Origin: Ignavibacteriota bacterium
GTDB taxonomy: Bacteria; Bacteroidota; Ignavibacteria; UBA10030; SZUA-254
Assembly: GCA_016212665.1 (NCBI GenBank)
Contig: JACREZ010000034.1
Location: 1-64,000, forward strand
DNA length: 64,000 nt
Direction: 5' to 3'
Part shown: one piece after another, positions 18,439 to 54,095 of the stretch
Layout of the letters: every line of letters begins with the position of its first letter
How positions within the stretch are numbered: the stretch's first letter is position 1
The notes under the pieces: model-generated
The model's database searches: none
Told to the model about the DNA's origin: nothing
What the model saw: the letters and a program-made list of their open reading frames with translations, nothing else
Program-made: the position numbers and the translations under genes

Positions 18439-18568
18439 ACGTTCAACATCGCTACTTCTGAATGTCTTCGTACTTTGTACTTCGTACTCTGTACTTGGTA
18501 CTTTGTTTTTTCCTCACATCTCAAATCGCATATCTCAAATCTCAAACGGTAATTTCCTTGCTTTTTGA
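18419..18568 (+). pseudogene. short 5' remnant of a T9SS-type secreted protein gene
   Basis: A 49-codon frame starts with the same ribosome binding site and first seven codons (MSKHNLS) as the large gene at 19523. It then encodes a hydrophobic stretch (SLLLNVFVLCTSYSVLGTLF) and stops. Its later bases (CTCACATCTCAAATCGCATATCTC) also resemble the signal-peptide region of the 19523 gene (CTCACATCACAAATCGCAGAACTC). It therefore looks like a leftover or duplicated 5' end, cut off by the PIN cassette. Part of the frame is built from GTACTTTGTACTTCGTACT words. It is unlikely to make a functional protein, though a small peptide cannot be excluded. Confidence 0.6.
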
Positions 18569-19470: not shown

Positions 19471-19542
19471 CTAATTAACCATTTCACCAATGACCAATTA
19501 ACCAACACAACAGGAGGACTCCATGTCCAAACATAATCTTTC
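19458..19542. repeat. 85-bp direct repeat, right copy
   Basis: Near-identical to 18354-18438, in the same orientation, separated by about 1.02 kb that holds the antitoxin/PIN/small-gene cassette. It includes the ribosome binding site (CAGGAGGACTCC) and first codons of the 19523 gene. The arrangement fits insertion of the cassette with duplication of the target, or a partial tandem duplication of the gene's 5' end. Confidence 0.9.
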
Positions 19543-22500
19543 GTTTAATAATATCGGTAGAGTCCATTTCGCAAATGGACGACATGTAACACAATATGTC
19601 CGATTGAGAATCGGACTCTACGCAACACGTTTGTTGCTGATTGCTCTCTGTTTTCTTCTCACATCACAAATCGCAGAACTCACGGCGCAGGTGGTGAGTG
19701 TTTCTCCTGAAAAACTAATTCACAAAACAGAAAACCTATTACGATATAACAGTATAACAAAGACGTGGAATGCTTACCCCGAAGTAACAATACGTTCTAT
19801 CCAAGAAGTACCATATGATTCATTAATAGCTGCTGATGCAATCCAACAGAGTGACTATGCACGCTGGACTCTTCAAATCGCAGATAGAGTAGAAAGCGCG
19901 ACAACGAACGATGATACTGCAACGGTGGTCGGTGTGTGTGTGGTTGAGCCCAAAGTAATAGGTTATACAGCAAATGGATTTGTTATGGTATTGTATGACA
20001 CAGCATCTAATGATAATGAGTGGAGAGGGCTTTGGGTGCGATGCAACAGCCCGACAGATACTTTGCAAAATATTCTTGACGGGTTCCTCAATGTACAACG
20101 CGGAGATATTGTTCGTATAACTGGGAGACTATCAGAATTCCCGACAGGTAACATGAACAGCATGACCCAGTTCCAACCTATTCCGGGAATTCCCATTGAA
20201 GTCGTTGGTACAATGAACATACCATCTCCTGTTAACAAAATCGACAGTGTTGAACAATTTTATGCCTGCGCATACAATCCAGTCGGTCCTTATTGTACAA
20301 AATATAGCACTGGCGAACGTTATGAGGGAATGTATGTTGAGTTTCATAACTTAACTGTGATTGGATACAGAAATATAAGCGGGAGGAGTGCAATTGAGAT
20401 GGCTGATGCCGAGGGAAATACAATTGTTATGCACGATGCATCAAAGTGGTTTACCGTTACAGGTGCATGGAGAGACCCCAATTCAACATGGTCGTTACCT
20501 CCGGTATTATCAGTCATTGATAGAATCAGTGGAATCATTCTACAAATTTCCGGTGGGGCGGGAACTTTGGGATATGTTATAGCGCCTATATATCCATGTG
20601 ATGTCGGGCAGTGTAATTCATGGCCTGGGTTGATTACGGGTACGAAATTCTATGATTTGGATGCAGATAGTATAAAAGACCCCGATGAAGTTGGTTTAGC
20701 AAATTGGCGCATTAATATCACTGGAAAAACATCAACCTATACTCTGACAAATTCAAACGGATATTATCAATTTTCAAATCTGGATTCCGGGAATTATACA
20801 GTCAGCGAAACACAGCAATCCGGTTGGTCACAAACGTTTCCACTCAATCAATCTTATTCTCTGTTCCTAGATTACAATGATACTATTAACAATATTGATT
20901 TTGGTAATACTCGCTTAAATTCTATAACGATTAGAAAATTTGAGGATAGAGATGGACTATTTTCAACACGGGGAGACCGAATAAGTTACCCGTGGAGTTT
21001 ACGTCTGTACCGTGATTCCGTATCATCAGAATCTTTAGTAGCATCATCGGATACTTCTGAGAGTATTAGCGTAAATGATTTATCGGCAGGTGTGTATATC
21101 GCGTCAGAGGCAGATAGCTTAGACTGGAAACCTTTAGGGAAAATAAGAAATAGAATTCCAATCGAACAACCGACAACACTAGACACAATACTACTCAGTG
21201 ATGATCAATCAACTGTGGTTGATTTTATCAATGTCCATCCAAGAATTGAAGTCAGGAAATTTTATTATACATATCATATAGACTCCACTACATCTTTGAA
21301 TCCTATACCATGGCATTTGACTCTTTACAAAGGGATGATACATGAGGATTCAATCGTCGCTCAGGTAGTGTCGGCAGAATCATTGGAGGTATTTAATGCT
21401 CCATCCGGATTGTATCTCATCAAAGAGGAAGAAAGAGCCGGTTGGGTTAGCATGGGTAAGACCATAAATGGAGGTCCATTCGAATACACTTCAGGAATTG
21501 ATACGGTGAATTACATCAACGGAGAGATATACAAAATTGGATTCCGGAATTCCAAGTTGGGAAGTATTAGCGGCGTTGTGTTTAATGACCTGAATGGCGA
21601 TGGCATGAAAGATAGTACGGAAACAGGATTATCAAATTGGTTAATTCGATTATCGGGCTCAAAAAATGATTCTACCGTTACCGATGCCAACGGACTATAT
21701 ACTTTTTCAAATCTTGATACCGGAACATACATCGTATATGAAGATATCAAATATCAATGGAAACAAACTCTTCCATCTTCCCCTGGAGTGTATTCAATAA
21801 CAATTTTTAATAGTGGTCAGGATTTCGTTGATATGAATTTTGGGAATCATCGGACTCAGAAAGTTAAACTTTCTTTTACTGTAAGTAACTTCTCTGGAAC
21901 GAGTAATCGTACACTATTTTTTGGCATTCGACAGGGTGCCTCCTACGGAATCTGGGAAGTTTATCCTCAAGCAACAACAATAGATTCAACAGAAGGTGAG
22001 TACGAAGTTCCGCCGCCGCTTTCACAGGCATTCGATGCGCGCTTTGTGGATGCTCGAGGAGGTGAAGAACGCTTCGGTACCGGTTCGTGGATAGACATCA
22101 GAAATTTTGAAGATGCCGCTCAGGTTGATACGTATAAAGTCAGCGTTCATCCGGGAAGTTCGGGTTATCCAATTATTCTGAGATGGTCGGGAGAGCAAAT
22201 TTCAAACGCCTACAAGGGTACTGTGAATTTTCTCGATGCATTCGGCGGGACAACTGACTTGAAATCAACGGATAGTCTTGTCATTACAAACAATCAAATC
22301 AGTTATCTCTTACTTATCACAAAACAACCCGCGCTTCCGTTTGTGTATGGCAAAGGATGGAATCTTGTCTCTGTTCCATATCTGGTTACGGATGGGAGAA
22401 AAAATATTTTATTCCCAAGTGCATCCTCTCATGCGTTTACATTCAGCGCGCTTGGCGGCTATGAAGTTCAAGACACGATGGAAAACGGAAAAGGATATTG

Positions 22501-23515
22501 GTTGAAGTTTCCATCTCTGCAACAGGATGTTTCGATAACAGGTGAGAATAGGTTAAGCGATGTGGTAGAAGTAGAGCAAGATTGGAATCTTGTTGGTTCG
22601 CTCAGCGTCCCGACTATTGCAAATAACGTAACTTCAAATCCTTCTGATATTATTTCATTGCCATTCTTCTCATACAACCGCGGCTACTCCATAGCAGATA
22701 CTTTAGAGCCATACAAAGGCTACTGGATAAAAGCAACAGCAAGCGGTCAGTTGATTATGAACTCAAGTGCGGCGTTTGGGAAACAGTTGTTAGTAAATTC
22801 GGCATTGGAAAATGCGAATAGGATTGTGATTGAGGATGCGAGAGGAAATCGGCAGGTGTTGTATTTCAAGAGTGAACCTTGCGAAGGTTGCAAACCTTCG
22901 CAAGGTTACGAGTTGCCGCCACTACCACCATCGGGAATTTTCGATGCTCGTTTTGCATCAAACAAATTTGTCGAGTTTGGTGAGAATGGGAAGTCAAGAG
23001 AAATTCCAATCCGGATTTCATCGGCAGAATATCCGTTGACGATTTCTTGGGAAGTGAAAGAGCAATTGACGATTGCATCATTGACGATTGCCAACGGCTC
23101 GGGTAGAGACGATTTGAAGATTGACTTAAAGAACAATGGAAGCACGAAAATCTTAAATCCTGAATCTCAAATCAGGTTAAAATTAAGCGTTACTTCTGAA
23201 CTGCCAACAGAATTTTCTCTTGACCAGAACTATCCGAATCCGTTCAATCCGACAACTGTTATTCGGTATCAGTTACCGGATGTAGGACGATTCGCTGAAT
23301 CGTCAGGTAGTCGAGACGGCGTCTCGACCTACAATGTAACATTGAAAGTGTATAACGTGCTTGGTCAGGAAGTTGCAACACTTGTGAATGAAGTTCAGGA
23401 TGCGGGGTTCAAATCGGTGGTGTGGGATGCAGCGAATGTTCCGAGCGGGGTATATTTCTACAAGTTGTCAGTTGGTGCTTTTACCGATATTAAAAAGATG
23501 TTGTTCGTCCGATAA
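19523..23515 (+). CDS. large SdrD-like T9SS-secreted surface protein
   Basis: The 1330-residue predicted surface protein has an unusually long signal region (cleavage likely after ELTAQ, about residue 56). It then has an N-terminal region resembling nucleic-acid-binding OB-type modules (about 60-370, uncertain) and two SdrD B-like domains: [21 protein letters not shown] at about 372 and [20 protein letters not shown] at about 685. Two PPL..FDARF modules flank the WNLVS/GYWLKF-WNLVG/GYWIKA duplicated module (about 950-1090). The T9SS sorting domain at about 1230-1330 has [13 protein letters not shown] and ends KKMLFVR. Three palindromic inserts interrupt the frame without breaking it: in the signal region (19557-19621), at residues 1118-1128 (22875-22907) and in the sorting domain (23281-23333). 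The ribosome binding site AGGAGGA fixes the start. Confidence 0.88.
19557..19621. repeat. three-hairpin palindromic element inside a signal-peptide region
   Basis: Outer arms GTAGAGTCC (19557-19565) and GGACTCTAC (19613-19621) enclose GTCCATTT-cgc-AAATGGAC, GACAT...ATGTC and GTCCGATT-gag-AATCGGAC. Two of the three inner hairpins are perfect 8-3-8 structures. The element is read in frame as about 22 residues ([14 protein letters not shown]...) and lengthens the N-region of the signal peptide of the 19523 gene. Confidence 0.85.
22875..22907. repeat. 33-bp perfect palindrome inside the SdrD-like gene
   Basis: Arms AACCTTGCGAAGGTT and AACCTTCGCAAGGTT (15 bp, perfect complements) are separated by GCA. 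It is translated in frame as part of [14 protein letters not shown], just before a [13 protein letters not shown] motif. The cysteines and glycines it encodes look foreign to the surrounding sequence. Confidence 0.88.
23281..23333. repeat. 53-bp double-hairpin element inside a T9SS sorting domain
   Basis: The framework is TGTAGG...GGTAG...CCTACA with two perfect 8-3-8 hairpins, GACGATTC-gct-GAATCGTC and GTCGAGAC-ggc-GTCTCGAC. In frame it adds about 17 residues ([17 protein letters not shown]) between RYQLPDV and VTLKVYN, which are nearly adjacent in normal sorting domains. A sister element with the same framework but different hairpin arms lies between genes at 50160-50208. Confidence 0.88.
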
Positions 23516-23533
23516 GGACAAAAGTTTTTTCAA

Positions 23534-23568
23534 AAGAGCATCGGCACTTCCCCGATGCTCTTTTTTTT
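23534..23568 (+). terminator. intrinsic terminator
   Basis: Hairpin AGAGCATCGG-cacttcc-CCGATGCTCT followed by T8, 18 bp after the stop at 23515. Confidence 0.92.
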
Positions 23569-23621
23569 AATTTTTGTAATTCACTGTCAACCATCGAAAA
23601 CAAAGCAATTTAGCCACATTC

Positions 23622-23928
23622 TCAGCCCTGCGCGGCGTAGGACATTCTCCCCGCGCCGCGGGAAAAAGCCTGAACTGTACAGGAAGTGTCCCGGACGGTG
23701 CAAGGAGAATCCTGCGCCTTACGGGACGTTTCCTCTACCGTACAGCCTAAGTGATAGTGTCAGAGGGAACTTCCTGCACAACGCAGGGGACAGCCTGCAA
23801 ATCGGCGGGAACTTCCTGTGCGCTGTAGGATATTTCCTTTGCACTACTGCCCTGATGCGAACGGCGCAGGGAAGTTCCTGAGTGTTGCAGGAACATGCCT
23901 GCAAGGTGTAGGAATGTTCCTCCATCGG
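23622..23928. repeat. degenerate ~21-bp tandem repeat array (about 15 units)
   Basis: The region divides cleanly into about 15 units of 20-22 bp with approximate consensus AAnnTTCCTGnnnnnnGnAGG. Unit borders are at about 23642, 23663, 23684, 23706, 23726, 23746, 23767, 23788, 23810, 23830, 23850, 23871, 23892 and 23913. The CCTG and AGG positions are conserved while about six central bases vary. It is GC-richer than its surroundings. Open frames across it are by-products. It starts 54 bp after a terminator and ends about 85 bp before the small gene at 24012. Confidence 0.8.
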
Positions 23929-24011
23929 TAAAAGAATTTTTTGATGAATCTCTGATTTCCTGTACATTGGTACACGATAACGCATTCAAACATAACAAAT
24001 TCATATTGACA

Positions 24012-24209
24012 ATGAATGAACATATTTCAAAAGCACAGAGAGAGGTTTGGGATTGGAAGAACGAACTTCATAATGAAATAAAAGATATGGAACTTGAAAA
24101 GGGGATTGAATACCTCCTGAAGAAAGTTGAACTCGTTGCCCACCAATGTGAACAACAGGGTTTGTTGAAGAGGCGAACATCAGAGCAACAAATAGTTAGG
24201 GTTCACTGA
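24012..24209 (+). pseudogene. small coiled-coil-like protein gene cut at its 3' end by an insertion sequence
   Basis: The frame begins at ATG 24012 (MNEHISKAQREVWDWKNELH...) and encodes a short, charged, helical protein (IKDMELEKGIEYLLKKVEL). The insertion sequence starts at 24198, so the last codons (RVH, TGA) come from its inverted repeat. Removing the element and one target copy restores ...SEQQIVTEP with TAA at 25919-25921, so only three native residues were displaced. The product may therefore still work. The function is not recognised. An upstream ATG at 23895 lies in the tandem array and is not preferred. Confidence 0.65.
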
Positions 24210-25905
24210 AAAAGTCACAAACGATGAAAACGAAGGTTTGAGGTGATGAGGCGGGAGTGTTGCAACCACACCGCGTACACAATCGCCTGTACCACTAAGC
24301 AAAGTGAAACAAAAAATTTGATGAACGTTTGAATGTTCATCACAAAGAAAATAGCAGCTATCCAACTTGCACTCGTATCACTTCGTCGCGCCATGATCTT
24401 ATCTAATCTATAACTCCGTTTTCCCGTTCCAAACTTCCCTTCAATATGATTGCGGAGATTACTTACCGCCTTTGTCACCGCTTGTCCCTCTCCATCGTTT
24501 CTCGGTCGTCCCAACGGTGTTCCTCCATAGATGATGTTGTGTGTTTTCATGTAGGCACGATTCTCTCTCGTCCCATATTTCTTGTCTGCCAACACTACCT
24601 GAGGATAATATCCATATGTCAGTTTGTACTCTTCTATTTGTGCCGGTAAATCTGATGCCTCGTGATACGAATCCCATGCAATGCGATGAATACGACTAAA
24701 TCCATTCATCACACTGCAGGATACTTGCGCACCAAATTCTGTTGGCGCTTTTGCTTTCCCCCGTACAATCGGTCGTACATGCGGCTGTGCGATACTCACG
24801 ATGCGGTCATCGATCCGATGCGTCTTCGTCGTGTACATTTCCTGTTGTTGTCGGTAAAGTTCTTGCACCACCCACAACGTTGTTTGCCCGGCTGAGGAAC
24901 ATGGTTCAGGAACGACATCCAACAACGCATGAATCGTCTTGATGTTTCTCTTCACGTATCCCAATTGTTTCCGTATTGCTTTTCGTATCGTTTTCCCGCT
25001 CCTCTTCTTCATTTTGGCATATTTCAAATAGTCCTTTCTCGCCTTCCTCCGATACGTGCGCGGTTTTGTTGTTCTCCTCTCCACAGGGAGGGAAGCATAC
25101 AACTCATCAATAAGTGCTTCCGTTTTTTCTCGTGCACGGTTCAGCAATTCCATGTCGGTCGGATAGGCTATATCGGCAGGAGCGACGGTAAGATCGGCAA
25201 TCAACAGTCCACGATTCGTCACCGCTTCTTGTCGTACCGCCTCTTCATTCGACGACGATAAACTCGTTGACAATCCCGTTTTCTCTGAGCCACCATCTGC
25301 ACGCGTGGGAGAAGTGGGGAACGACGGTCCATCGGTTCCTTCATCAGATGAGGATTCACGCACTGTTCCGACATCAGTCGAAAACCTCTCGGCAAGGTGA
25401 AGGAGTTCCAGTACCATTGCATCGAACTCGTGTTCGCCGAGGCGTTTGCGTATGGTCACCAACAAGGAGGGATCAAATACCCATTCGTATTGATAGTGAC
25501 GAAGCCCAAGAAAGTATTGTTGATACACATTTTCTTGGATCGAACGAAGAGTGTCTTCATCACTCAATCCTTCTTTATGTTTGATGATGAGCGCTCCGAT
25601 CACGATGCGTGCGTCTGTTGCGGGACGTCCTTGAGTTGCCGACATCGTACGATAGTACACCGCCGCGAGACGATCCCACGGGAGAGCATGTGCGAGTTGT
25701 ATCCAACGGTTTTCCCGGGGAAGGTTCATTTCGAACGGTGTGCGAAATTCTTCAAATGTGAGTTGATGTTGGCTTTGATAACGAATCATTGATATTGCTC
25801 TGCAAGGGTTTTGGTATCTTTTTCCATAATATCGTGCATTTCTCCTTTCCAATACAACTGTAAGTTCTTCATTTATATGGTGTTCATACTTTTTCAGTGA
25901 ACCCT
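24198..25905 (-). mobile_element. complete IS5/IS1182-like insertion sequence
   Basis: A 1708-bp element is bounded by perfect 18-bp inverted repeats: AGGGTTCACTGAAAAAGT at 24198-24215 and its complement ACTTTTTCAGTGAACCCT at 25888-25905. It is flanked by a 4-bp target duplication AGTT (24194-24197 and 25906-25909). It carries one transposase gene on the minus strand. Intact ends, an intact transposase and exact target duplication indicate a recent insertion. Confidence 0.93.
24215..25789 (-). CDS. DDE transposase of the IS5/IS1182 type
   Basis: The 524-residue transposase has an InsH/DUF772-type N-terminal domain (NRWIQLAHALPWDRLAAVYY...GRPATDARIVIGALIIKHKEGLSDEDT...) and a catalytic domain with VLADKKYGTRENRAY (second Asp) and HIEGKFGTGKRSYRLD (final Glu). 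A Ser/Gly-rich linker lies at about residues 155-195. The start is placed at MIRYQSQHQLTFEEF (25789); the frame stays open to 25852 but homology begins here. The stop codon overlaps the inverted repeat by one base. Family assignment (IS5 group versus IS1182) is from motif pattern only. Confidence 0.88.
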   Translation of the reverse strand: MIRYQSQHQLTFEEFRTPFEMNLPRENRWIQLAHALPWDRLAAVYYRTMSATQGRPATDARIVIGALIIKHKEGLSDEDTLRSIQENVYQQYFLGLRHYQYEWVFDPSLLVTIRKRLGEHEFDAMVLELLHLAERFSTDVGTVRESSSDEGTDGPSFPTSPTRADGGSEKTGLSTSLSSSNEEAVRQEAVTNRGLLIADLTVAPADIAYPTDMELLNRAREKTEALIDELYASLPVERRTTKPRTYRRKARKDYLKYAKMKKRSGKTIRKAIRKQLGYVKRNIKTIHALLDVVPEPCSSAGQTTLWVVQELYRQQQEMYTTKTHRIDDRIVSIAQPHVRPIVRGKAKAPTEFGAQVSCSVMNGFSRIHRIAWDSYHEASDLPAQIEEYKLTYGYYPQVVLADKKYGTRENRAYMKTHNIIYGGTPLGRPRNDGEGQAVTKAVSNLRNHIEGKFGTGKRSYRLDKIMARRSDTSASWIAAIFFVMNIQTFIKFFVSLCLVVQAIVYAVWLQHSRLITSNLRFHRL

Positions 25906-33066: not shown

Positions 33067-33102
33067 ACTTCAATTCAAAATGAAAAATTAAAAAGTAAAA
33101 AA

Positions 33103-33235
33103 GTAGTTGAGTACAAAGAACCAAGTACCAAGAACCAAGTACCAAGAACAGATAACTAATAAGATTAGAACTCACTCACTACTAACTACTCACCACTCAC
33201 AAATCACAAATGACAATTGACCAATGACAAATGAC
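33103..33235. repeat. word-repeat spacer running into a start codon
   Basis: The spacer consists of tandem short words: AAGTACCAAGAACC repeats at 33105-33150, ACTCACTCACTACTAACT and CACCACTCACAAATCAC to 33205, then ACAATTGACCAATGACAAATGACAAG. The last word supplies the start codon and first codons (MTNDKN) of the methyltransferase gene. Similar words occur in signal-peptide regions at 44622-44770 and 54000-54090. Confidence 0.7.
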
Positions 33236-34042
33236 AAGAACGATTATCTTCTCGGCGTAAGCGAAACCGAACTTGAGAGACTTCGATTTCAACATAGCGT
33301 CTGGAAAAAAGTAACGGATGATTTCTTCACACGGCTCAAAGTTGGGAATGGCTGGAAGTGTCTGGATGTCGGTGCGGGACCGGGATTTGTGGCGATGGAT
33401 TTGCGCGAGCGTGTCGGTGAAACAGGAGAAGTGTCGGTTCTGGAACCATCAAAATATTATTTGGATTGGTTCCGGAACGATTCAGCGAAGAGCGGATGGT
33501 CAAACATCAAGTTTATTGAAGGAACCGCGGAACATTCTCAACTTCCTTCTTCTTATTTCGATTTTATCTTTGCGCGATGGGTGATTGGCTTTGTCCCTGA
33601 TGCGGAAAAATTTTTACTGAATTTACTTCGCTCACTCAAACCCGGCGGAATCATCGCCTTACAGGATTATCAGTACGAGGGATTGTCTCTCTATCCGAAT
33701 TCCGGTGCGTTTCAACATGCGGCGGATGCTGTACGCGGATATTGGCGTGCCGGCGGCGGTGACCCGTATGTTGCATCCCGCATTCCTATAATTTTTCGTC
33801 AACAGAACATCAACCTTATTGAATACAAACCCAATTGTCTTGCCGGCGGACCGGAAAGCAATGTGATGGAATGGGCGCACAGATTTTTCTCAACTCATTT
33901 TCAGGCGATGGTTGATAAAGGTGTGATTACCCAAACTGAAGGTGATGCAATGCTGGCAGATTGGCTCGCTCACCGGGAAAATCCGGACACAATGTTTTTC
34001 TCTCCACTTGTTGTTGATATTGCCGGAGTGAAACCGAAATGA
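33224..34042 (+). CDS. class I SAM-dependent methyltransferase
   Basis: The 272-residue cytoplasmic enzyme has SAM-binding motif I LDVGAGPGFVAMDL (about 45-58), motif II-like VSVLEPSKYYLDWF, motif III FDFIFARWVIGFV and LLRSLKPGGIIALQDY. No substrate-specific domain is recognised, so the target (small molecule, lipid or protein) is unknown. The gene overlaps the M61 peptidase gene by 4 bp (ATGA), suggesting an operon. The first six codons derive from a word repeat, so the true start may be less certain; no strong ribosome binding site is visible. Confidence 0.86.
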   Translation: MTNDKNDYLLGVSETELERLRFQHSVWKKVTDDFFTRLKVGNGWKCLDVGAGPGFVAMDLRERVGETGEVSVLEPSKYYLDWFRNDSAKSGWSNIKFIEGTAEHSQLPSSYFDFIFARWVIGFVPDAEKFLLNLLRSLKPGGIIALQDYQYEGLSLYPNSGAFQHAADAVRGYWRAGGGDPYVASRIPIIFRQQNINLIEYKPNCLAGGPESNVMEWAHRFFSTHFQAMVDKGVITQTEGDAMLADWLAHRENPDTMFFSPLVVDIAGVKPK

Positions 34043-42753: not shown

Positions 42754-44625
42754 ATGAAAACTGTGTGGATTTACATATTCGGTTTTACATTTCTGTTCTT
42801 TACAGCTCATGCTCAGCAAAAGAATATCGAGGTGAAACTGAAACTTGCTCAGAGTTATGAACGAAGCGGTGATTTCGAAGCCGCCGTCAGACTGTATGAA
42901 GAAGCATACGCGAAGGATTCGACGAACCCCACTCTATTTGAATCGCTCAAGCGTTGTTATCTTCAAACAAAAAAATATCCCGAAGCAATTACCATCATCA
43001 ACCGGCGGTTATATCAAACGCCGAACGACCTTTCGCTCCTGTGTCAACTTGGAACGATTCATGTTCGTAACGCAGAAGATGCAAAGGGCTTTACAGTATG
43101 GGAGCGTGCAATTCTTCTCGACTCAACAAACGAAGTAACCTATTCAATTGTCGCAAACTCGATGATGGAAGTTCGGTTGTTCGAGAAGGCAATCGAAACG
43201 TACAAACGTGGACGCCGTGCCTGCAATAAAGATAAATTATACATCACCGACCTTGCCTACTTGTACGGCAGCACATTAAATTATGCCGATGCGACTTCCG
43301 AGTATCTGAAACTCATTCAGGAAAATCCCGCGCAGTTGGGATTCGTTCAATCGCGCATGGCAAGTTACACCAACCGCGCCGACGGACGGAAAGCCGCAAC
43401 CGAATCTGTTGAACAAATTACAAAAACCGAAACGGAAAATCTTGCCATGTCTCAACTGCTTGCATGGCTCTACATGGAAGGAAAGCAGTACGACAAAGCG
43501 TTCGATGTGTATAAACTTATTGACAAAAAAACGAACGCAGGAGGACGAGAGATTTTCACTTTTGCCGAGCGGGCGTTTCGGGACAAATCATATATGATTG
43601 CTTCGCAGGCATATCAGGAAGTAGTGAGCACGTTTCCAAAATTTCTTATGGTGCCGCAAGCGAAGTTCGGACATGCCCGAACGCTTGAGGAACTCAGTGC
43701 GACGAACGACACGCTTAAACTCTTTGGCAACGTCAGTCCGTTTCAAAGCGAAGAAAAACCGGCAACAGAATCGGAGCCGCAATTTACCGGCGTCGTTTTG
43801 GCGTATAAGCGTATCGTGAGCGAATATCCGAAAACGGAAATTGCCGCTCGCTCACTTCTCCGCGTTGCATCACTTATGTTTGAACGCTTCTTCAATCTTG
43901 ATGAAGCACAATCAACGCTGAATGATTTTTTGAAGAATTACGGTCAGTTCATTCCGCTTGCTGTGGAAGCAAAATTGTTGCTCGGCGATGTAACGCTTGC
44001 TCAGGGAAATCTTGATAAAGCGGAAGAGACGTTGAAATCCATCAGCGATATACGCCCCGTTTCACCTGAGAATAAAGACAAAACCAACTTGCGGCTTGCA
44101 GAAATCGCTTATTTCCGCGGGCAGTTCAAGAGCGCGATAGAACAACTCGGAACTGTTATGAACGATGCGCTGTCGAACACGACGAACGATGCGCTGACGC
44201 TACAGATTTTCATGCAGGAAAATCAGGAAAAGAACTCAGCCGCTCTCCGTGAATTTGCCAAAGCCGATTTTCTGAAACGTCAGCGGAAACTTTCCGAAGC
44301 GCTTGCCATCTACGAGAATATTTTTAAGAGTGATACGGAATCGGAAATGGCGGATGAAGCATTGATGAGCATCGGCGATATGTACGCGCAAATGCGTCGC
44401 TTCCCGGAAGCAGTCGCTTCGTACGAACAACTTGCAACTGACTACGAGGAAAGCATCAACCTCGACAAAGCGACAATGAAAACCGGGCAGATTTACGAAC
44501 TCGGTTTGAAGGATAAAAACAAAGCCATCGAGGCGTATCAAAAATTATTAGAGAAATTTCCCAACTCCATTTTAGTGAGTGAGGCTCGGAAACGGATTCG
44601 GGAATTGAGAGGAGACAATATATGA
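42754..44625 (+). CDS. exported TPR-repeat protein
   Basis: The 623-residue protein has a signal peptide 1-20 (FTFLFFTAHAQ) followed by TPR units throughout: AQSYERSGDFEAAVRLYEEAYAKDSTNPTLFE near the start and DEALMSIGDMYAQMRRFPEAVASYEQLATDY near the end. Such proteins are scaffolds of envelope complexes; no enzymatic motif is visible. The start at 42754 is chosen because the signal peptide begins there; the longer frame from 42658 runs through the terminator. The stop overlaps the next gene (ATGA), so the two are translationally coupled. Confidence 0.85.
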   Translation: MKTVWIYIFGFTFLFFTAHAQQKNIEVKLKLAQSYERSGDFEAAVRLYEEAYAKDSTNPTLFESLKRCYLQTKKYPEAITIINRRLYQTPNDLSLLCQLGTIHVRNAEDAKGFTVWERAILLDSTNEVTYSIVANSMMEVRLFEKAIETYKRGRRACNKDKLYITDLAYLYGSTLNYADATSEYLKLIQENPAQLGFVQSRMASYTNRADGRKAATESVEQITKTETENLAMSQLLAWLYMEGKQYDKAFDVYKLIDKKTNAGGREIFTFAERAFRDKSYMIASQAYQEVVSTFPKFLMVPQAKFGHARTLEELSATNDTLKLFGNVSPFQSEEKPATESEPQFTGVVLAYKRIVSEYPKTEIAARSLLRVASLMFERFFNLDEAQSTLNDFLKNYGQFIPLAVEAKLLLGDVTLAQGNLDKAEETLKSISDIRPVSPENKDKTNLRLAEIAYFRGQFKSAIEQLGTVMNDALSNTTNDALTLQIFMQENQEKNSAALREFAKADFLKRQRKLSEALAIYENIFKSDTESEMADEALMSIGDMYAQMRRFPEAVASYEQLATDYEESINLDKATMKTGQIYELGLKDKNKAIEAYQKLLEKFPNSILVSEARKRIRELRGDNI

Positions 44626-45989
44626 TTTCGCATTGCGGATTGCGGATTGCGGATTTTGCTAACACTGTGATTGGTCATTGGGCATTGGGCATTGGTAAGA
44701 GTACAAGGAGCAAAGCGCTACGAGCAAAGTATATTTTCATTGCTCTCTGCTCACTGCTCACCGCTCTCCCTGTTCAAGCGCAGAAAGTATTGATACCGAT
44801 GGACCTGAAGCAGAGCGAACACCTGAAGGCATACGGCATTGCATATTGGGCATTGACAAAAAATATCGAAGTGGATTGGCTGTTGAATTACCGTGGCGGC
44901 TCATTTATGATTGATGCGCTGGAAATGGTTTCGACGGAGTGTCGCGTTCGGAATGTTTCGTTTGAAGAAATCAGCGGTTCGCAGGCGGCACAAATCTATG
45001 CGGAGATTCAGCAGGAAGATAACAACATGGATGTCGTGCGATTGGAAAAAGCGCCCCGTGTTGCAGTCTATGTTCCACCCGGCTTTGTGCCGTGGGATGA
45101 TGCTGTAACACTCGCGCTTGAATACGCGGAAATTCATTACGATAAAATCTGGGAGGATGAAGTTATGTCCGACAAACTCGCGCAGTATGATTGGCTCCAT
45201 CTTCATCACGAAGATTTCACCGGGCAGTATGGAAAATTCTATGCATCGTTTTCCACTCAACCGTGGTATATCGAACAGCAGATGATGCACGAAAAGAAAG
45301 CGAAGGAACTTGGGTTCAGAAAAGTTGCCGAGATGAAGAAAGCCGTAGCAAGGAAAATCAAGGAATTCGTTGCGGCAGGAGGATTTTTATTTGCCATGTG
45401 TTCGGCTACCGATGCGTTCGACATTGCGCTTGCGGCAGAGAAAACAGATATGTGCGACGTCATGTACGACGGCGACCCGCCCGATTTGAACGCACAAAAG
45501 CGGCTTGATTTTTCCAAGACTCTCGCGTTCGAGAATTTCACCATCGAAATGAATCCGCTCCGCTACGAATATTCAGACATTGACATTCCGCCGAGCGACA
45601 TGGTGGCGATGCTCAATCAGGAAACGGATTACTTTACATTGTTTGATTTCTCTGCAAAGTACGACCCTGTCCCGACGATGCTCACACAGAATCATGCAAA
45701 CATTATTCGCGGGTTTCTCGGACAAACAACAAACTTCAAAAAAAGTCTGATAAAAAAAAACGTGACGACTCTTGCAGAGAAAGAAGGAACGGAAGAAGTT
45801 CGATACATTCATGGCAATTTTGGTCGCGGGACGTACACTTGGTATGGTGGCCATGACCCGGAAGATTATCAGCACGCAGTTGGTGACCCACCAACAGATT
45901 TGAAGTTGCACAAAAATTCTCCCGGCTACCGTTTGATTCTCAACAACGTGTTGTTCCCCGCAGCAAAAAAGAAACAGCAGAAAACGTAA
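44622..45989 (+). CDS. conserved exported protein of unknown function
   Basis: The 455-residue protein has a signal region (residues 1-53) ending LTALPVQAQ, then a conserved body starting KVLIPMDLKQSEHLKAYGIAYW. Notable motifs are YVPPGFVPWDDAVTLALEYA, YDWLHLHHEDFTGQYGKFY, GGFLFAMCSATDAFDIAL and FGRGTYTWYGGHDPEDY, suggesting a glutamine-amidotransferase-like or DUF4159-like fold with a conserved His/Glu/Cys set; this is inference. Related proteins in Bacteroidota are sometimes labelled asparagine synthetase B, but no AsnB domain is visible. The first ~50 codons are made of word repeats (CATTGCGGATTGCGGATTG, TTGGTCATTGGGCATTGGG, CTCTCTGCTCACTGCTCACC). It is coupled to the TPR gene upstream and 6 bp from the phosphoesterase gene downstream. 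Confidence 0.72.
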   Translation: MISHCGLRIADFANTVIGHWALGIGKSTRSKALRAKYIFIALCSLLTALPVQAQKVLIPMDLKQSEHLKAYGIAYWALTKNIEVDWLLNYRGGSFMIDALEMVSTECRVRNVSFEEISGSQAAQIYAEIQQEDNNMDVVRLEKAPRVAVYVPPGFVPWDDAVTLALEYAEIHYDKIWEDEVMSDKLAQYDWLHLHHEDFTGQYGKFYASFSTQPWYIEQQMMHEKKAKELGFRKVAEMKKAVARKIKEFVAAGGFLFAMCSATDAFDIALAAEKTDMCDVMYDGDPPDLNAQKRLDFSKTLAFENFTIEMNPLRYEYSDIDIPPSDMVAMLNQETDYFTLFDFSAKYDPVPTMLTQNHANIIRGFLGQTTNFKKSLIKKNVTTLAEKEGTEEVRYIHGNFGRGTYTWYGGHDPEDYQHAVGDPPTDLKLHKNSPGYRLILNNVLFPAAKKKQQKT

Positions 45990-50210: not shown

Positions 50211-51029
50211 TCACCAATCCTTCTCCACCTGACCGCGAGCAGGAACTTTCTTTTGTAATTTCTTTTGCACTTTTTTCTCGTCGTTCTTCAGCGCTTCTAA
50301 AATTCTCTCAGCATCTTCTTTCGAGATTTGCTGTTTTTTCTGTTGTGCCTGTTGTTGTTTGGCTTGCTCTTGTTTTTGCTGTTCCTGTTTTTGCTGCTCT
50401 TGCTGTTGCTGCTGTTGCTGCTGCTTCTGTTGGTCTTGTTTTTGTTGGTCCTGATTCTGTTTTTCGTCCTGTTTCTTGTCGTCTTTCTTTTCCTGACGTT
50501 GTTGTTGCTGCTGCTGCTGTTGTTGCTGAAGCATTCGTTTTGCGTACTCGTAGTTGTATTTCGTTTCCGTGTCTTTCGGATTTGCTTTCAATGCTTCTTT
50601 GTACGCCGCAAGACTTTCCTGAAACTTCTGTTCCTTCATCAACGAATTGCCCAAGTTGTGTAACGCCTGCGCTTTGATTTCGTTATCCTTCGCTTTCATT
50701 GCCGACATGCGGTATTGTTCCGCCGCTTCACCGAACCGGTCTTGTTTATACAACGCATCGCCCAGATTGAATGACCCTTCAACAAGGTCTTTGTTTTTCT
50801 CAAGCGATTTCTTGTAACTGACTTCTGCGTCGGAATATTTTTTTTCTTTGTACGCGCTGTTACCGTCGCGGATGTGCGAGCGTTCCGATTGAGCAAACGC
50901 GCTTGAAATCATCAAACAAAATAACAGTAGGACAGGGATTCCTGCCTGTCTCGTTCTATTGTAAAGATTACGGCAGACGGACAGGAATGTCCGTCCCACC
51001 ATCAGTCTTGTTTCATTTCGTTTCATCAT
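50211..51029 (-). CDS. batC: BatC-like TPR protein with glutamine-rich tail
   Basis: The 272-residue protein has a signal region ending LMISSAFAQ (about residue 47), TPR repeats (about 55-165; AYKEKKYSDAEVSYKKSLEKNKDLVEGSFNLGDALY) and a low-complexity Gln/Lys/Glu tail of about 85 residues encoded by CTG/TTG-type triplets (50330-50530). It ends with a short charged helix. The start ATG at 51029 overlaps the batB stop (ATGATGA). The first part of the signal region (VGRTFLSVCRNLYN...) is encoded by a double palindrome at 50930-50997 that looks inserted. Role: periplasmic partner of the Bat VWA proteins. Confidence 0.85.
   Translation of the reverse strand: MMKRNETRLMVGRTFLSVCRNLYNRTRQAGIPVLLLFCLMISSAFAQSERSHIRDGNSAYKEKKYSDAEVSYKKSLEKNKDLVEGSFNLGDALYKQDRFGEAAEQYRMSAMKAKDNEIKAQALHNLGNSLMKEQKFQESLAAYKEALKANPKDTETKYNYEYAKRMLQQQQQQQQQQRQEKKDDKKQDEKQNQDQQKQDQQKQQQQQQQQEQQKQEQQKQEQAKQQQAQQKKQQISKEDAERILEALKNDEKKVQKKLQKKVPARGQVEKDW
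50930..50997. repeat. double palindrome inside the batC signal-peptide region
   Basis: GACAGG-gattcctg-CCTGTC (50931-50950) and GACGGACA-ggaa-TGTCCGTC (50976-50995) flank about 25 bp. It is read on the minus strand as VGRTFLSVCRNL...RQAGIPVLL. A GACAGGAAT-type repeat of this kind is often intergenic in other bacteria. Confidence 0.75.
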
Positions 51030-53088: not shown

Positions 53089-54095
53089 GCGTTCACCTCT
53101 TCGGGTTGAACGGTTTGTTGCACGTGAACATCACGCCATGTCTGCTCGACAAACTTCGTTGCGGTAGTGATGCTCGTTTCGTTGTCTTGTTGTGTCGGCT
53201 GATATTTGGCAAACTTCACGAAGTCAGATTTGACGAGCAATTCCTTCAACGGTTCACGTGTCTGTTTTTCGAGCGATGCAATCACCGGGGAATCCATGAT
53301 TTCATCCGTTACCATTTCCATCGCCATCACGCGGTAGCGGCGTTCAATGTACATCCGAACTATATCCGTAAGTTGCGAATAATGCTCTTTGATTTTTCCC
53401 CGTTGCCAGAGATGTTCGGATTCAAGCGAACGAAGCGCTTCAAGAGCCACTTCGTGCGCGGGTCGAGGCGGCGCCTCGGGAATGATGCTTTCGCCCCGTC
53501 TCCGCTTGTTCCATATATAATAGAAGAGATAACCGAGCCCGCCAAGAACAACCAATCCGATGATGTACGGAAGAAGTTCGGCAAAGGTAATGGACAAACT
53601 AAGCGGCGGTTTGATGTCTTTGATGTCCTGCGTTGTATCAACATCAACCGTGTGGACGAAAATCGGAATGGGTGAAGTTTCGGCGATGCGCTTTGCAGTA
53701 TCGCCCAGCATCGAATACAAAAATTGTAACGGCGGCACAACGACCGTTCCCGAATCAAACGAGGTAATAATGTACTCCGCTTTTTCGAGAACATCGCTTC
53801 CATTCTTTTGCGTTTGCACTTCTCCCCGTTTGATAATTTCAATTCCCTGAAGCGAGTCGGCAATCTGTGGCCAATGGATTGTCGTGTTATCCCGGTGCTG
53901 AACTTCGATATGCAATCCAAGCCAATCGCCAATCATGATGTTGTTGGAATCAACGCGTGCAGTCGCTTTCACCTCCTGCGCTGTGAGAAATGAACTTTGA
54001 GCGGTGAGCAACACCCATAGGAGCAAGTACAAAGTACGAAGTACCAATTGATTAATTCGCAATTGGCAATTCGAAATTCGAAATTCTGTTACCAT
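53085..54095 (-). CDS. BatD/DUF4381-like membrane protein of the Bat operon
   Basis: The 336-residue protein lies between DUF58 and BatA. A signal region (1-40, ending SSFLTAQ) is followed by a periplasmic beta domain (VKATARVDSNNIMIGDWLGLHIEVQH), one membrane segment at about 172-192 (LPYIIGLVVLGGLGYLFYYIW) and a helical cytoplasmic part (ALEALRSLESEHLWQRGKIKEHYSQLTDIVRMYIERRY), typical for this operon position. The signal region (MVTEFRISNCQLRINQLVLRT...) is encoded by words at 54000-54090 such as GAATTTCGAATTTCGAATT and GTACTTCGTACTTTGTACTT. It overlaps the DUF58 gene by 7 bp. Confidence 0.82.
   Translation of the reverse strand: MVTEFRISNCQLRINQLVLRTLYLLLWVLLTAQSSFLTAQEVKATARVDSNNIMIGDWLGLHIEVQHRDNTTIHWPQIADSLQGIEIIKRGEVQTQKNGSDVLEKAEYIITSFDSGTVVVPPLQFLYSMLGDTAKRIAETSPIPIFVHTVDVDTTQDIKDIKPPLSLSITFAELLPYIIGLVVLGGLGYLFYYIWNKRRRGESIIPEAPPRPAHEVALEALRSLESEHLWQRGKIKEHYSQLTDIVRMYIERRYRVMAMEMVTDEIMDSPVIASLEKQTREPLKELLVKSDFVKFAKYQPTQQDNETSITTATKFVEQTWRDVHVQQTVQPEEVNA

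Follow-up and report, generated by a model that had tools for sequence, protein, structure and literature searches.

In parC of the ParMR system, tubC of TubRZ and the iterons of plasmids, tandem and helically phased repeats lie directly upstream of a gene. Heptameric intergenic repeats of the STRR type are known from cyanobacteria, and minisatellites or VNTRs are tandem repeats with a variable number of units. REP/BIME elements, as well as the REPINs associated with RAYT transposases, are described as GTAG- and CGTC-tagged palindromes (PMC3733652). We compared with all these systems a degenerate tandem array hosted in a stretch of 64,000 nucleotides from an Ignavibacteriota bacterium (hereafter, the window), together with similar arrays from the same genome and from other bacteria.

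The class of arrays to which we assign this locus resembles parC, tubC and iterons in having phased tandem repeats upstream of a gene that possibly encodes the binding protein, but the window copy itself has no partner gene. While the neighbor in those systems is a Rep or partition protein, here no ParM, ParA, TubZ or Rep-like gene is present; the linked proteins are instead helical and FN3-like, with no known DNA-binding domain, and many unrelated array sequences coexist within one genome. As with REP, BIME and REPIN elements, the arrays are extragenic palindromes that occur several times per genome and are in some cases linked to a gene family. However, REPs are dispersed copies of one sequence, whereas here the unit sequence is particular to each locus and repeats in strict 21-bp tandem, and the array-linked proteins, unlike RAYTs, are not transposases. 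We rejected membership in the REP group because the other arrays of the same genome have unrelated units. The likeness to STRR heptamers lies in the intergenic tandem arrangement and in the presence of period-7/14 arrays elsewhere in the genome, but the window array carries dyads and shows no 7-bp sub-period by autocorrelation. Minisatellites share tandem repetition with variable unit number; they differ from a class that keeps one period in unrelated sequences and in several phyla, is linked to genes and has double dyads. A CRISPR array was also rejected, since the units are contiguous and degenerate, without spacers, and no cas gene occurs among the flanking open reading frames examined. The preliminary description of the locus had likewise set it apart from CRISPR and from simple slippage repeats, and in both respects it holds.

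We propose, with a probability of about 0.45, that the window array belongs to an undescribed module composed of a 21-bp double-dyad DNA array and an adjoining gene for a protein of ~205-260 amino acids, in which the array would act as a scaffold. No description of such a module was found in the open-access literature covered or in the databases searched.

Architecture of the window array

Autocorrelation of positions 23601-23945 returned an identity of 0.42 at lag 21 as compared to 0.247 (z 7.4, 500 dinucleotide shuffles as null), with further signals at lag 42 (z 6.3) and lag 63 (z 3.0), which rules out chance periodicity. The preliminary description had reported about 15 units with a period close to two helical turns, and had proposed an autocorrelation of this region at 20-22 bp. 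The signal is indeed above that of shuffled sequence, the reported coordinates and consensus (AAnnTTCCTGnnnnnnGnAGG) are correct, and the array is real (Table 1). Tandem Repeats Finder detects only the best 2.6 copies, because adjacent units are only ~42% identical.

Table 1. Coordinates of the array and of its immediate context in the window
Feature	Position	Strand	Remarks
Upstream gene	19523..23515	+	Type IX-secreted protein with Por_Secre_tail C-terminus (open reading frame, Pfam); context, outside the array
Terminator-like element	23532..23572	+	Perfect 13-bp inverted repeat plus T-run, between upstream gene and array
Leader CAAAGCAATTTAGCCACATTCTCAGCCCTG	23601..23638	+	Includes the first, weak unit at 23618
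Whole array	23618-23923		~15 units of 21 bp, apart from two of 20 bp
Array proper	23639..23923	.	14 in-register units, pattern AGGAA-nn-TTCCTG-nnnnnnGC
Unit starts, first half	23618 (weak), 23639, 23660, 23681, 23702, 23723, 23744, 23764
Unit starts, second half	23785, 23806, 23827, 23848, 23868, 23889, 23910
20-bp units of array proper	23744-23763 and 23848-23867		All others 21 bp
Dyad axes of array proper	unit start +5.5 and +16
Small gene	24015..24209	+	64 amino acids, downstream of array; context, outside the array module

The preliminary description had also judged the array to be unlike palindromic repeats. On the contrary, each unit has two axes of palindromic symmetry, separated by 10.5 bp (AGGAA-nn-TTCCT and CCTGC-nnnnn-GCAGG), with a Watson-Crick fraction of 0.53 on the axis versus 0.17-0.31 at every other shift between -10 and +10. 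The homologous arrays of the sister species G002 lie on the same axes (0.52 for the array on contig C145 and 0.46 for that on C499). When all pairs (i,j) were sorted by i+j modulo 42, Watson-Crick matches peaked at two phases exactly 21 apart, and dyad axes therefore recur every 10.5 bp; arrays from external genomes likewise have two axes at this distance. The window array thus combines 21/42 bp as its strongest period with dyads every 10.5 bp.

The arms of the palindromes also covary. After permutation of letters within columns, the dyad phases of the window array rank 1 and 3 of 42, and covariation is detectable in many other arrays. In 43 oriented gene-linked arrays, Watson-Crick covariation reaches z 14.3 at the dyad phase and -1.2 off phase, where the former value carries a small upward bias from choosing the phase by Watson-Crick fraction and comes from units that are related by duplication within each array. 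On average, the chosen phase ranks 4.4 of 21 for covariation, with 11 expected. G-U cells, in gene orientation, are slightly more depleted than A-C cells (ratios 0.94 and 0.97, respectively), and this lack of preference for G-U in covarying arms favors duplex DNA over an RNA helix. Between the window array and its G002 homologue, one-sided pair breaks (62) exceed two-sided compensations (3).

Distribution of the arrays and linkage to protein genes

In ~860 kb of the genome hosting the window, scanned for periods 8-79, the dominant periods are 14 (heptamers), 21 and 42, and about a dozen mostly intergenic loci bear 21/42-bp arrays with unrelated unit sequences. No simple regulator motif common to all of them was seen by eye. 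A genome search of the kind suggested in the preliminary description, run with the array, recovers only the relatives on contigs C16 and C23; the other arrays of the genome have unrelated sequence. In samples of four relatives, 21-bp arrays were few or absent. We also scanned a collection of species genomes for AGGAANNTTCCT at 21-bp spacing and found arrays in Acidobacteriota, Bacteroidota, Planctomycetota, Verrucomicrobiota and Spirochaetota. For GC-rich contigs we discarded a scan that applied a threshold to 21-bp periodicity, as it returned false arrays inside genes. In an array of ~1.9 kb from Spirochaetaceae (L059, 2721-4600), ~90 very different units keep the 21-bp step throughout. By reading, its left units approximate the reverse complement of the right units, with palindromic units toward the center, so that the whole looks like one large inverted repeat.

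Several arrays of the genome hosting the window lie directly upstream of genes for ~205-amino-acid proteins. Array-linked proteins measure ~205-260 amino acids and have a helical or coiled-coil N-terminus, followed in families A and B by an FN3-like C-terminus. Another linked family, PQLLE, corresponds to NCBIfam NF052641, which is a sequence model only: a paper under that name was not found in the literature searched. Pfam and NCBIfam returned for the family proteins weak fn3, PQLLE or nothing, with no known DNA-binding domain; PADLOC and PDB gave no match and PHROGs weak tail-protein matches only. Searches of plasmid and phage collections gave no match to the family-B protein, and no meaningful plasmid, phage or viral-contig homologues of either arrays or proteins were found. 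Profile comparison suggests that A1 and A3, the latter from external genomes, form a single family (probability 97%); for family B, we claim no link to either PQLLE or family A, as the signal is too weak.

Protein search in the genome hosting the window identified three family-A genes, of FN3 type, and nine full-length family-B genes. For nine of these 12 genes the strongest upstream period is 21 or 42 bp, and for two the array is directly downstream; the twelfth (L171), near a contig end, has an upstream array according to a later test. We then fetched family B by protein alone in genomes G002, G009, G021, G030 and G071, where 13 of 14 testable genes have an upstream 21/42-bp array and the fourteenth a downstream one. 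Upstream arrays recur at family-B genes of genomes picked by DNA pattern, in Acidobacteriota, Spartobacteria, Bacteroidota and Planctomycetaceae. The PQLLE family has an upstream 21-bp array at all seven testable genes. In a fourth, unnamed family, 10 of 14 loci have an upstream 21-bp array, the exceptions being loci with top periods of 14/21, 27 and 16 and one wrongly called gene.

Overall, 21 or 42 bp is the strongest upstream period for 43 of 46 genes of families A-C, fetched by protein alone (PQLLE included, the fourth family outside), compared to 8 of 381 background genes (Fisher P 4e-47, which overstates the evidence because related genes are not fully independent). In the three exceptions, the array is downstream. 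The background comes from the genome hosting the window only and may include family genes, which makes that side of the comparison conservative; its commonest strong upstream period is 14. The linkage holds in Bacteroidota, Acidobacteriota, Planctomycetota and Verrucomicrobiota. It is also detectable in the opposite direction: among genomes picked by DNA pattern alone, family B is present in 7 of 11 that bear arrays and in none of four that do not. Most arrays precede the gene and keep one orientation to it, and the distance to the start codon is often 22-200 bp. Three family-B genes (L169, L170 and L203) have a 21-bp array directly downstream, which argues against a purely promoter-like role.

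Our expectation that every external array would adjoin a family gene was wrong. Many arrays found by pattern are solo, and the genomes that host them mostly encode the family elsewhere, with an array of its own. Five arrays of the genome hosting the window (L113, L097, L109, L083 and L105) adjoin other genes. In array-bearing genomes of Spirochaetaceae, including that of L059, and of Verrucomicrobiales, a search for family B gave no match.

Sequence turnover and readings of the array

Three paralogues in genome G021 encode proteins that are 84-87% identical and share 78-79% identity over the proximal 160-208 bp, whereas their arrays have no detectable similarity save short matches near the far end. 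All three arrays retain the 21-bp period. Paralogues of such similarity with unrelated arrays indicate that the geometry is kept and the sequence is not.

From the periodicity, the dyads, the compensatory variation of the arms, the linkage to genes, the homology between the window array and one that is linked to a gene, and the turnover of sequence, all of which are observed, we infer that the arrays may bind protein. The preliminary description had considered a multi-site protein-binding array, and this part of it is plausible. Spaced two helical turns apart, the units would all face the same side of B-DNA, and a dyad would recur every turn. On such a scaffold, dimers, most simply of the neighboring gene product, could assemble side by side and cooperatively, recognizing the geometry and phase of the dyads more than their sequence. 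Reading by geometry would let the unit sequence turn over while the architecture stays, and the likely outcome would be a local nucleoprotein structure with an organizing, tethering or autoregulatory role. What speaks against the scaffold is that the loci of the genome hosting the window differ in unit sequence, a variety that a sequence-specific protein would not allow. Further points against it are that the linked proteins have no known DNA-binding domain, that one-sided pair breaks outnumber compensations between the window array and its homologue, that the window copy has no partner gene and two 20-bp units, and that some arrays are solo, adjoin other genes or occur in genomes with no family-B match. 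In its broadest form, the proposal would describe a system common among bacteria: a dedicated protein assembles on a chromosomal array that it reads by geometry and not by sequence, the sequence being actively renewed and the architecture preserved; we regard this extension as possible but doubtful.

The main and strongest rival to the scaffold is growth of the array as a mutational satellite. Palindromic units would expand and be corrected through slippage and hairpin template switching, and the array would be a functionless hitch-hiker of the gene family, carried along, for instance, within a mobile unit. Alternating half-units, compensatory arms with no preference for G-U and fast turnover are what quasi-palindrome correction and slippage are expected to produce, and both the patchy distribution among relatives and the existence of orphan arrays, the window copy included, fit well. 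Slippage, however, should yield many periods, whereas unrelated sequences from different phyla almost invariably show a step of 21 or 42 bp, nearly every family gene has an array, and the ~1.9-kb Spirochaetaceae array holds its register over very different units. Satellite growth accounts for the palindromes and the turnover but does not explain why the period stays at 21 bp and why nearly all the genes are linked to an array, and we consider it rather unlikely.

The usual position upstream of a gene, in fixed orientation and close to the start codon, would also suit an array transcribed as a gene leader and acting as a chain of hairpins in RNA, and the predicted folds are stable on both strands. 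Yet both strands fold about equally well, as DNA palindromes must, in gene orientation the depletion of G-U equals or exceeds that of A-C, Rfam returned only sub-threshold or unrelated matches, and three arrays are downstream of the gene. The structured non-coding RNA that the preliminary description had offered beside the binding array is thus not borne out, since G-U is not tolerated over A-C and no Rfam family matches, and we hold this reading to be improbable. Quite improbable is also a role as operator or enhancer, in which a general regulator of the host would bind the array and control the downstream gene: the 21-bp spacing fits cooperative binding, and in the G021 paralogues the array precedes the conserved proximal region, but the arrays of the genome hosting the window have no common sequence by eye, which makes one sequence-specific regulator for all of them unlikely, and some arrays are downstream or orphan. 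Finally, 21 is a multiple of 3 and, in many arrays, at least one frame is open, as in a coding or decayed coding heptad repeat of seven codons. The preliminary description had named a decayed coding region as the finding that would overturn its view. Such an origin is exceedingly improbable: 25 other arrays of the class carry no codon-position signature (combined P 0.61), steps of 20 or 41 bp occur in the window and L109 arrays and the 20-bp units break the frame in the window, and the unit of the C32 array has, by reading, stops in all three gene-sense frames.

Several uncharacterized families, spread over at least four phyla, are paired nearly one-to-one with an array of free sequence and fixed geometry. 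Unannotated genes thereby gain a concrete and testable DNA partner, and the linkage raises the possibility that DNA is recognized by geometry. A period of 21/42 bp beside a gene also serves as an operational rule to find further members, as well as orphans like the window array.

The window copy and its surroundings

The closest homologue of the window array is on contig C145 of G002; the alignment, which keeps the register, spans terminator, leader and array and has 68% identity over 392 bp. The terminator-like hairpin is kept upstream of the array of the sister species. The G002 array lies upstream of a family-B gene starting MDYVPKPEQLFHQW, with one in-frame stop (L180, G002:C145:4846-5457). 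The leader CAAAGCAATTTAGCCACATTCTCAGCCCTG is common to two arrays of G002 and to the paralogues on contigs C16 and C23 of the genome hosting the window, both upstream of intact family-B genes. No family-B gene was found adjoining the window array, which we class, by its sequence homology to the gene-linked array of G002, as a putative orphan of the protein-plus-array module.

The orthologous locus of G002, on contig C499, has a shorter array (~10 units, versus ~15 in the window) and no family gene, and is followed by an intact PIN-domain gene. Since both loci lack a family gene, the orphan state of the array at this locus probably dates back to the common ancestor. It either lost its partner gene or never had one. 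Either the window copy is a relic, or it cooperates with a protein from another locus; the genome contains 13 family-B matches, nine of them full length. It may be decaying, because the partner gene is absent and two units measure 20 bp.

Other features of the window deserve mention. Comparison of 23930-24209 with the C499 locus (L006) shows that in the sister species a PIN-domain gene precedes the 64-amino-acid gene and is missing here. With no PIN-domain neighbor, the small gene looks like an orphan antitoxin. An intact-looking transposase with DUF772 and DDE_Tnp_1_2 domains (24215-25852, minus strand) adjoins the array region. Clusters of short degenerate 7-bp (and 14-bp) tandem repeats are present at 18466-18546, 33072-33237, 44624-44766 and 54025-54086, and TGCTG-rich tandem repeats with periods of 6, 15 and 36, probably a coding repeat, at 50328-50461.
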